Below, piece by piece: positions 43,972-59,592 of a DNA stretch of 64,000 nucleotides. The stretch is from Aeropyrum sp. GTDB taxonomy: Archaea > Thermoproteota > Thermoprotei_A > Sulfolobales > Acidilobaceae. The stretch's first letter is position 1, and every line of letters starts with the position of its first letter. The stretch covers positions 1 to 64,000 of the forward strand of contig WANT01000047.1 in NCBI GenBank assembly GCA_015521685.1, read 5' to 3'. The position numbers were made by a program, and so were the translations under genes. The notes below the pieces were generated by a model that was not told the DNA's origin, made no database searches, and was given only the letters and a program-made list of their open reading frames with translations.

Positions 43972-44084
<113 letters not shown>

Positions 44085-55797: not shown

Positions 55798-55822
55798 GGC
55801 GGGACCAGTGGTTGGTCCCGCC
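55798..55822. repeat. 10-bp inverted repeat GGCGGGACCA-N5-TGGTCCCGCC at the tRNA-Tyr 3' end
   Basis: Perfect arms read directly. Confidence 0.8.
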
Positions 55823-55922
55823 GCGGGGATTCGAACCCCGGACCACCCGGTATCTGCGGTTCTACACCGGGCTCGCCCGTGTCCCACTACAGCCGGGCGC
55901 TCTGCCGCTGAGCTACGGCGGG
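55813..55922 (-). tRNA. tRNA-Tyr(GTA) with encoded CCA and a 35-nt canonical intron at 55852-55886 (37/38)
   Basis: Cloverleaf: acceptor cccgccg/cggcggg, cccgg-ctGTAga-ccggg after splicing, T arm cggggttcgaatccccg. Confidence 0.92.
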
Positions 55923-56680: not shown

Positions 56681-58555
56681 CTATCTAGCCTTATCTAAAC
56701 CTAGTTTTTCTTTGATCCACTTGAGTTTGATCTCAAGCCTCTTCCTCCTATGCCTTGGAGAGGACAGAATGCTGTGGCTATGGCTACCTCTAGTGAAGAC
56801 TAGTAGGGTGCTATCCTTACCTAGGATCTTCAAGGCTGTATGCATGGCCAGAGCCTGGTCAATGAAGCACCTATAGTCCTGCATGCTGTGGATTATGAGG
56901 AGAGGCGTCTTAACCTTCTCAGCGTTGAATACAGGGCTCCTCTTAACATACTCCTCCAAGTTGTCTAGAGGCGTGCCACCAATCTGGTCCACGTCAAACC
57001 AATACCCTATATCGGCGGCCCAGAAGTCAGCTATCCAGTCAGCTATACCATTCTCGCTTACCGCTGCCGAGAACTTGCTAGTCTTAGTTATAATCACATT
57101 CGTCATGTAACCGCCGTAGCTGATGCCTGTAACGACGAGGCGGGATTGGTCAGCGTCAACTCTGGCTAGGACCTCGGAAAGGAAGTCCATGATCTGGTTG
57201 AAATCAACCTCGCCGTACTTCCCTCTAATATCCGCGAATTCTTCTGAGTAGCCGTCGCTCCCCCTCGGATTGGAGTAAGCTACGATAAAGCCTTGGGAGG
57301 CGAATAGCTGCATCTCGTAGTGGAACGAGTACCCATACATACCCTTGGGCCCGCCGTGAACGAAGAGTATAAGTGGTTTAGGCCCCTCGGTATCATCGGG
57401 TTCTATGAACCAGCCGTCTATCTGGTCTCCCTGGCTATTTAGACTTATGTGTATGGGCTTGTAGAGCTTGAATTTCTCTCCGAGCCAGCTATTTATACTA
57501 GTCACTTGAAGGACCCTACCGCCGGATAGTCTGTAGACTTCGGTGGGCGATACTGGGTTTGAGGCGGTGAAAACAGTGTCCACACCGTTCGAGTGAGCCT
57601 CGTAGATCACGGAGTCCATCCTTACGAGGTCCTCAACTCCCTTCTCATCAATTACTGCTAGTACGCTCCTACCAGAATCTGCGTATACTACGGCTGGCCT
57701 TCCGTCTAGCCCTCCAGCTATGGACCATATGTTTCTATCCAGCGAATCGCATGATAGGCACTCAGCACCACCTCCTTGTAACTTGTATAGTTTGTTGTGG
57801 CTCGCTATGCCTATCTCTCTCTTATGAGCTAAGAGGTAGAGCTCCTGCCCTACACACTTTATGCTAGATATAGTAAGTCCTTCCAGGATAGTTTCTGGCT
57901 CCCCGCCCTCCGGCTTAATTCTCTTGAGATGGGTGGTCAAAGGATCCTTCCAGGACTCGAGCGATACGTAGTAAATATATCCTCTGCATGATTCGGCCGA
58001 CGCTACGCCAATCTTCTCCTCGGTTATCTTTTCTACAAAGCCTGAATCGGCATCAACTAGATGTAACTGGTCTGAGAGGCCAGCTATGAATCCAGCCCCG
58101 TCAAACCAAAGGGGTAGCCTGTTAGTCATAACGTAGTCTCCATCGCCATCATAGAAATCCTTCTCTTCAACTGGCGCTACTACGAGCATCCTCCTAGCAT
58201 CTAGCCAGGCTAGAGAGGAAATCCCGTGTTTGAACCAGGCTATGCGCCTAGCCTCTCCAAGCCTACCTGCAACGTATAGTCCGGAACCCTTCTCCCCTTT
58301 ACCCGCGGTTCTTCTGCTGGCGAATGCCAGTAGCCGCGAGTCAGGGCTCCACTCAGGCTGCGAGTCTCCCTCTCCCTGGTAGAAAGACTGCTCTCCAGAG
58401 GACCATAGAACGCGGATCTCGTTTCGATACTTATTTGACTCAAGGTCGGGGACTGTGGTCGAAAACGCTATATCTCCAGATGGCGATATCCTAGGGGAAG
58501 ATATCCTAACAAGGCGAAGCACTTCTTCCACTCCTAGCTTCCTACGACTAGGCAA
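56681..58555 (-). CDS. S9 prolyl oligopeptidase / acylaminoacyl-peptidase-like
   Basis: LFVHGGPKGMYGYSFHYEMQLFASQGF, VTGISYGGYMTN, MQDYRCFIDQALAMHTAL, catalytic-type His in RGSHSHS. Confidence 0.9.
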   Translation of the reverse strand: MPSRRKLGVEEVLRLVRISSPRISPSGDIAFSTTVPDLESNKYRNEIRVLWSSGEQSFYQGEGDSQPEWSPDSRLLAFASRRTAGKGEKGSGLYVAGRLGEARRIAWFKHGISSLAWLDARRMLVVAPVEEKDFYDGDGDYVMTNRLPLWFDGAGFIAGLSDQLHLVDADSGFVEKITEEKIGVASAESCRGYIYYVSLESWKDPLTTHLKRIKPEGGEPETILEGLTISSIKCVGQELYLLAHKREIGIASHNKLYKLQGGGAECLSCDSLDRNIWSIAGGLDGRPAVVYADSGRSVLAVIDEKGVEDLVRMDSVIYEAHSNGVDTVFTASNPVSPTEVYRLSGGRVLQVTSINSWLGEKFKLYKPIHISLNSQGDQIDGWFIEPDDTEGPKPLILFVHGGPKGMYGYSFHYEMQLFASQGFIVAYSNPRGSDGYSEEFADIRGKYGEVDFNQIMDFLSEVLARVDADQSRLVVTGISYGGYMTNVIITKTSKFSAAVSENGIADWIADFWAADIGYWFDVDQIGGTPLDNLEEYVKRSPVFNAEKVKTPLLIIHSMQDYRCFIDQALAMHTALKILGKDSTLLVFTRGSHSHSILSSPRHRRKRLEIKLKWIKEKLGLDKAR

Positions 58556-58671
58556 TGACTATTCCCCATAGGCACAGTTGGAACGCCAAGAGTGTAAATA
58601 TAGAGCTGTAAAGCAAGTACATCAGCAAAAAGAGGAAAAGCCGCTTAAGTAAGACAATGTCTTTATCTGGA

Positions 58672-58758
58672 GCGGCCGGGAGCAGACCCCCGCCCCGCCT
58701 AGAGCCCTAGGCCTATTCGGGCCTAGCTATGAAAGGCGGCTTCCCTCCCGGCACACAC
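58672..58758 (+). ncRNA. candidate H/ACA box sRNA with K-turn
   Basis: Lower stem gccgggag/ctcccggc (58675-58682/58745-58752) followed by ACA (58753-58755); pocket; upper stem ccgcct/aggcgg; GA/GA K-turn-like internal loop; apical ctaggcc/ggcctag. Confidence 0.75.
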
Positions 58759-58875: not shown

Positions 58876-59592
58876 TCAGTGTCTGGGCGGTAGTAATCCT
58901 CCGAGGTCCTCGATCTCCTTTGAAGCCTCTTCTAGGTCCTTGAAGGTGTCAATGCTCCTCCAGTAGTAGGGGGGTATCTCGTACCTCACTGCTACTAGCT
59001 TTTTCATACTGGCCAGTTGTGGGAATGTTGTTTTCTCTATGTCGCCATGGTCTGGCAAATATTTCACTATCTCGCTGCTCACCGCGTACAGGCCTCCATT
59101 GATCCAGTAGTCGTGGATCAGGGGCTTCTCCCTGAATCCCGAGACGTTGCTGTCTTCCAGCTCTAGAATTCCGTAGGGGCTTCTTAGTGGTACTGCTGCT
59201 ATGCCCGCAGTGGCTTTCCTTTCCTGGACAAGATTGACTAGAGGTCCTGGATCGATGTTAGTCACTATATCACCATTAACTACCAGGACCACTGGCTCCT
59301 TCTCTATAATATGTCTCGCATTCCAGAGAGCTCCCGCAGTACCTAGAGGGCTGTCCTCAACGACGTACGTGATTCTAACTCCGAGTCTAGAGCCCGAACC
59401 TACCTCTTCGATTATCTTCTCCTTTAGGTATCCGACTAGGAGTACGAACTCCTGAACCCCGTAGTACTTTAGCCACTCTATTTGGTGCACTAGGACTGGC
59501 TTTCCCGCGACTTCAAGGAGGGGTTTAGGCTTTTGCTCTGTGAGAGGTCTTAGCCTCTTGCCATATCCACCAGCTAGGATTAGCGCTAGCAC
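58876..59592 (-). CDS. NDP-sugar nucleotidyltransferase
   Basis: LILAGGYGKRLRPLTEQKPKPLLEVAGKPVLVHQIEWL, VNGDIVTN. Confidence 0.93.
   Translation of the reverse strand: MLALILAGGYGKRLRPLTEQKPKPLLEVAGKPVLVHQIEWLKYYGVQEFVLLVGYLKEKIIEEVGSGSRLGVRITYVVEDSPLGTAGALWNARHIIEKEPVVLVVNGDIVTNIDPGPLVNLVQERKATAGIAAVPLRSPYGILELEDSNVSGFREKPLIHDYWINGGLYAVSSEIVKYLPDHGDIEKTTFPQLASMKKLVAVRYEIPPYYWRSIDTFKDLEEASKEIEDLGGLLPPRH

Follow-up and report, generated by a model that had tools for sequence, protein, structure and literature searches.

The window, the whole 64,000-nt stretch of Aeropyrum DNA analysed here, contains a 320-nt gap between an S9 peptidase gene and a sugar-nucleotidyltransferase gene, both on the minus strand, and a hairpin that we interpret as a guide RNA lies in this gap on the plus strand. 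An earlier note made from the sequence alone had placed an unannotated H/ACA guide RNA between these two genes, a position borne out by Pfam matches for both neighbours. Its unannotated status held as well: the locus had no Rfam match at gathering threshold, and at E-values up to 10 gave only chance-level matches far below gathering scores. The features of the locus are as follows.

56681-58555, minus strand: flanking S9 peptidase gene (Pfam PF00326)
58643-58651, plus strand: possible archaeal TATA-like element CTTAAGTAA, approximately 22-30 nt upstream of the RNA, by inspection only
58673-58757, plus strand: whole predicted H/ACA guide sRNA, as the span of the covariance-model match (second model, R2; 59.5 bits, E 8.6e-9, the window being one of the R2 seed sequences)
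58675-58682, plus strand: lower stem, 5′ strand GCCGGGAG, from sequence and covariation
58687-58694, plus strand: 5′ pocket arm CCCCCGCC, perfect 8-bp pairing with 16S GGCGGGGG, n+2 onwards
58695-58700, plus strand: upper stem, 5′ strand CCGCCT, from sequence and covariation
58701-58704, plus strand: k-turn strand AGAG (GA for tandem sheared pairs), GA in most members
58707-58726, plus strand: apical hairpin CTAGGCC/GGCCTAG above the k-turn, from the fold
58730-58733, plus strand: k-turn strand TGAA (UGA), UGA or UGG in nearly all members
58734-58739, plus strand: upper stem, 3′ strand AGGCGG, from sequence and covariation
58740-58744, plus strand: 3′ pocket arm CTTCC, with TTCC (58741-58744) pairing with 16S GGAA and C58740 unpaired
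58745-58752, plus strand: lower stem, 3′ strand CTCCCGGC, from sequence and covariation
58755-58757, plus strand: ACA box as assigned from homologues, at a distance of 15 nt from the upper stem (same-genus orthologue alignment and covariance-model span)
58876-59592, minus strand: flanking sugar-nucleotidyltransferase gene (Pfam PF00483)

Inspection of the sequence found the stems, arms and AGAG/UGAA k-turn elements exactly where the earlier note had put them. A pocket is present between the lower and upper stems, both of which covary, and the predicted AGAG/UGAA k-turn above the upper stem is of the kind that would mark an archaeal H/ACA RNA. The lower stem is followed by an overlapping run, ACACACA, holding ACA copies at 58753-58755 and 58755-58757, 13 and 15 nt from the upper stem. 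The earlier note had chosen the copy at 13 nt; an ACA does stand there, directly after the lower stem, but the functional box is taken to be the second copy because the ACA of the homologues aligns with 58755-58757. Its distance of 15 nt lies in the 14-16 nt range of archaeal H/ACA boxes and fits the 14-15 nt of productive guides (PMC4652768). No promoter or terminator was found at the locus by a bacterial-type scan. Elsewhere in the window, two tRNA genes longer than 100 nt (43972-44079, plus strand; 55816-55922, minus strand) probably bear introns.

The fold of the single window sequence is unremarkable for its composition (z-score −1.5). The unconstrained minimum-energy fold reaches −40.5 kcal/mol, versus approximately −37.0 kcal/mol for the H/ACA fold; CCGCC occurs twice in tandem, so that in the minimum-energy fold GGCGG takes the arm copy as its partner rather than the upper-stem copy, and the free RNA may prefer this alternative register. 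Among the relatives described below, members such as G022, G205, G051 and G005 have an upper stem unlike the arm (CCTCCA, CCCCGC, CTGCCGCC) and keep CCCCCGCC or CCCGCC as the arm, which favours the H/ACA register over the minimum-energy fold. The match of the arms to rRNA had been judged unlikely by chance; this stood against uniform random arms, which equalled the window score in 0 of 2000 trials, but less well against shuffled arms of the same composition, which equalled it somewhere in rRNA in 42 of 2000. Because C-rich arms fit G-rich rRNA easily, the pairing alone is good, not overwhelming, evidence. A mechanical scan for a lower stem, box, spacing, upper stem and UGA, with criteria written after the element had been seen, returned one element in the 64-kb window, the hairpin at 58673-58757; 20 shuffled windows gave a mean of 0.05 elements each, none with an rRNA target. 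The window sequence alone is only moderately strong evidence for an H/ACA RNA, and it is comparison with related sequences that settles the case for the predicted guide.

A DNA similarity search of 60 relatives returned no real homologue except the window itself. A pattern consisting of the arms and ACA, with no stems, was searched in 60 genomes, and three of its matches outside the window (in G004, G018 and G051) had full H/ACA anatomy by eye, their lower stems lying outside the search pattern yet present and leading directly to the ACA. A first covariance model built from the window and these three sequences matched 11 of 200 genomes, including G135, G099, G022, G205 and G061. The second model, R2, used eight seed sequences, G004 being left out; it matched further genomes, G005 and G003 among them, and 24 of 232 in a search of the class. 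A third, R3, built from 29 members, matched 42 of 232, with the same arms and different stems, its weakest matches (E 0.004-0.1) being uncertain. The window is part of both R2 and R3, and the E-values that these models give it are therefore not independent. Ungapped structural alignments were used for the seed models because MAFFT misaligned the raw hairpins; in these alignments N stood in for the apical loop, and a small number of variable bases were left out.

Covariation was extensive. Changes on both sides with pairing kept were seen in 13 of 16 base pairs among the eight seed sequences, and compensatory changes in 15 of 16 among the 29 aligned members, with covariation in all 10 model pairs of the lower stem. 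In these alignments, which were fitted to the structure, 97.8% of cells were paired (slid controls 35-55%; shuffles 0/500). The lower stem contains G-U pairs consistent with the plus strand being the RNA. The ACA box stands at 14-15 nt in most members. The 3′ arm is TTCC in 27 of the 29 and TTTC in the other two, and the 5′ arm is conserved even in relatives with a differing upper stem, arm conservation among matches being partly selected for because the models contain the arms. Two results are not imposed by the models: the presence of stems in the three sequences found by the stem-free pattern, and the synteny in G005 and G003. The earlier note had proposed a covariance-model search and a covariation analysis in relatives, and both came out in favour of the element.

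When R2 was run on 401 phylum-wide genomes, nothing was found outside families f1 and f7. The whole genome of G053, presumably Staphylothermus hellenicus, gave no such element and weak noise only; it does hold many copies of a dispersed repeat, GTTTGTCCCTACCGTGTCATTC...GGTAGGGACTTCC. Weak R2 matches of 36-62 nt (e.g. loci L099-L102, L105 and L107) were rejected as noise, judged by shape. One assembly, G110, which is 82% complete, contains two similar guide copies on different contigs, reflecting either duplication or mixed strains.

Synteny was found within the genus. G005 (1,669,696 bp) and G003 (1,595,994 bp), which we take to be Aeropyrum pernix K1 and A. camini, respectively, carry the guide in the same orientation in the orthologous gap, beside S9 peptidase orthologues that are 65 and 64% identical and a nucleotidyltransferase orthologue that is 86% identical. 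In G005 the predicted RNA, of about 85-90 nt, maps around 1465025-1465108 on the plus strand. Their arms have changed (CCCGCC; UUUCU), and the best pairing is still with U920 of 16S rRNA, through 6 + 5 pairs including one G-U. No guide homologue was found in the same-genus assemblies G001 and G002. The S9 peptidase and nucleotidyltransferase genes nearly abut in G002 and G004, with no guide between them; the guide copy of G004 lies elsewhere on the contig.

Several members depart from the full form. The guides of G022 and G205 have CTA/GTA, and that of G014 has CCC/AGC, instead of ACA, with arms and stems kept. Guides of the G004 and G018 type have four extra nucleotides (AGAC or GGGA) inserted in the upper stem, on its 3′ strand. 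Five assemblies of family f9 (G161, G228, G131, G229 and G183) retain the arms (CCCCGCC ... TTCC), the upper stem and UGA, show neither a lower stem nor an ACA where these would be expected, and have a common 3′ tail, CGGCCUUCA, also given as CGGCCTTCA. These f9 hairpins, linked to the window family by R3 matches only (E 0.004-0.05), are possible reduced guides for the U920 site.

The predicted target is U920 of 16S rRNA (E. coli numbering), the first of the unpaired pair U920-U921. The source assembly (1.44 Mb, 68 contigs) contains no 16S gene that we could find, and the target segment was therefore read from the 16S of relatives. As the earlier note had claimed, the window arms match a universal segment: they form perfect duplexes of 8 + 4 bp on GGAA-UU-GGCGGGGG, with UU between them. 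GAAUUGGCGGGGG is present in all 25 16S loci recovered from relatives, and GGAAUUGGCGGGGG in all but one, the exception having an apparent intron junction before the segment. U920 was the top-ranked of all uridines for the window arms on the rRNA region of G005; it ranked first for five of the six members tested, the window included, and second for G061, whose arms were scored on the rRNA of G005 and not on its own. The weakest part of the predicted geometry is the 5′ target duplex, with 4 bp and one unpaired nucleotide beside the stem and an estimate of −2.1 to −2.3 with initiation, which would place it close to the −6 kcal/mol limit that PMC4652768 discusses. In relatives, loss of 16S sequence upstream suggests introns that end just before the target segment or, in G029, inside it (loci L064, L065, L069, L078 and L079). 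In such genomes the guide could presumably act on the interrupted site only after splicing.

In the established 16S structure, U920 is flanked by the central pseudoknot strand on one side and by helix 28, the neck of the 30S subunit, on the other; in E. coli the arms cover nucleotides 916-919 of the pseudoknot strand and helix 28 from its start at 922. This placement would suit an RNA that mainly chaperones folding of the central pseudoknot and neck, with modification secondary or absent, and such a role would also accord with the members that keep both arms without an ACA and the possible f9 relatives that keep them without a lower stem. We nevertheless regard it as unlikely for the family, since most members retain the full catalytic geometry: ACA, 14-15 nt spacing, a covarying lower stem and the UN gap. 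A related speculation, likewise improbable, is that a guide family serving one 16S site retained its arms and upper stem in a neighbouring family but shed the lower stem and ACA there, the conserved function being binding of the rRNA junction, in folding or as a checkpoint, instead of or besides pseudouridylation.

It is very unlikely that the RNA is an H/ACA guide whose functional target is a neighbouring or other uridine, such as a site in 23S or U921. A register shifted by one, targeting U921, is available to members with ATTCC, for example G051 (35.0 vs 36.0), and for the window arms a small number of other rRNA sites come within a few points of U920. However, members differ in the 3′-arm base beside the stem, which may be C, G, U or A, so that U921 is not generally possible, and the first rank of U920 in five of six members argues against another uridine. 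That the hairpin belongs to a neighbouring mRNA, as a structured leader or terminator, or is a GC-rich hairpin formed by chance, is scarcely credible: the z-score of only −1.5 and the fit of C-rich arms to G-rich rRNA in 2% of composition-matched shuffles lean that way, but the neighbours are on the other strand with no terminator-like site in the bacterial-type scan, homologues occupy different loci in many genomes, and the covariation would have to be an artefact.

We conclude that the element is most probably a gene in its own right, encoding a box H/ACA guide sRNA with a single hairpin that is predicted to guide pseudouridylation of 16S U920, and assign this reading a probability of about 0.9. 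The H/ACA identity proposed in the earlier note is supported by covarying homologues, ACA spacing, k-turn elements, synteny in two genomes and a Cbf5 gene in the source genome. The latter was matched in two pieces 33 nt apart (contig C36, 5053-5832 and 5866-6069), as expected from the cbf5 intron known in these archaea (compare PMC2738675). The guide would be transcribed from its own gene, and its hairpin would bind Cbf5, Nop10 and Gar1, and L7Ae through the k-turn. The open pocket would then capture pre-16S or 16S rRNA, with CCCCCGCC on GGCGGGGG and UUCC on GGAA. U920 and U921 would both stay unpaired at the foot of the upper stem, and Cbf5 would isomerise U920 to pseudouridine there. The literature passages covered name no pseudouridine at 16S position 920, the main experimental paper and supplementary tables being outside their scope.

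The mapping of crenarchaeal rRNA pseudouridines and their guides is sparse. The prediction made here is specific and can be tested: it joins one guide to one site, at a 16S junction central to function, in hyperthermophiles that are in culture, which we take to be A. pernix, A. camini, Pyrolobus and Pyrodictium, and the covariance model recovers the family in approximately one-fifth of the class genomes searched. The series from full guides, through guides without ACA, to possible guides without a lower stem asks what an H/ACA guide minimally needs.

The element represents a new family of a known kind, the box H/ACA guide sRNAs, and the nearest known system is that of the Pyrococcus abyssi Pab H/ACA guides, classes 10/5/9 and 10/6/9 (Toffano-Nioche et al. 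2015, PMC4652768). Like these, the window family has a single hairpin, a UGA/GA k-turn, an upper (GA) stem of approximately 10 layers by our own count, a 5-nt 3′ arm, a lower stem with, in most members, an ACA behind it at 14-15 nt, and a target UN between the duplexes. It differs in its guide arms and lower-stem sequence, the window lower stem being 8 bp, and the literature passages covered, which do not take in Muller 2008 as the primary paper, give other sites for the P. abyssi guides. The Sso1-type H/ACA guide, which targets tRNA-Tyr psi35 in Sulfolobales and A. pernix (PMC4652768), is likewise crenarchaeal with a canonical fold and is set apart by its tRNA target. H/ACA-like sRNAs without a lower stem have been described in Pyrobaculum (Bernick et al. 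2012, as cited in PMC3608112 and PMC4652768). As far as these citing papers describe them, the possible f9 relatives resemble the Pyrobaculum RNAs in form, in having arms, an upper stem and a k-turn with no lower stem, whereas the window RNA differs from them in its full lower stem and ACA.
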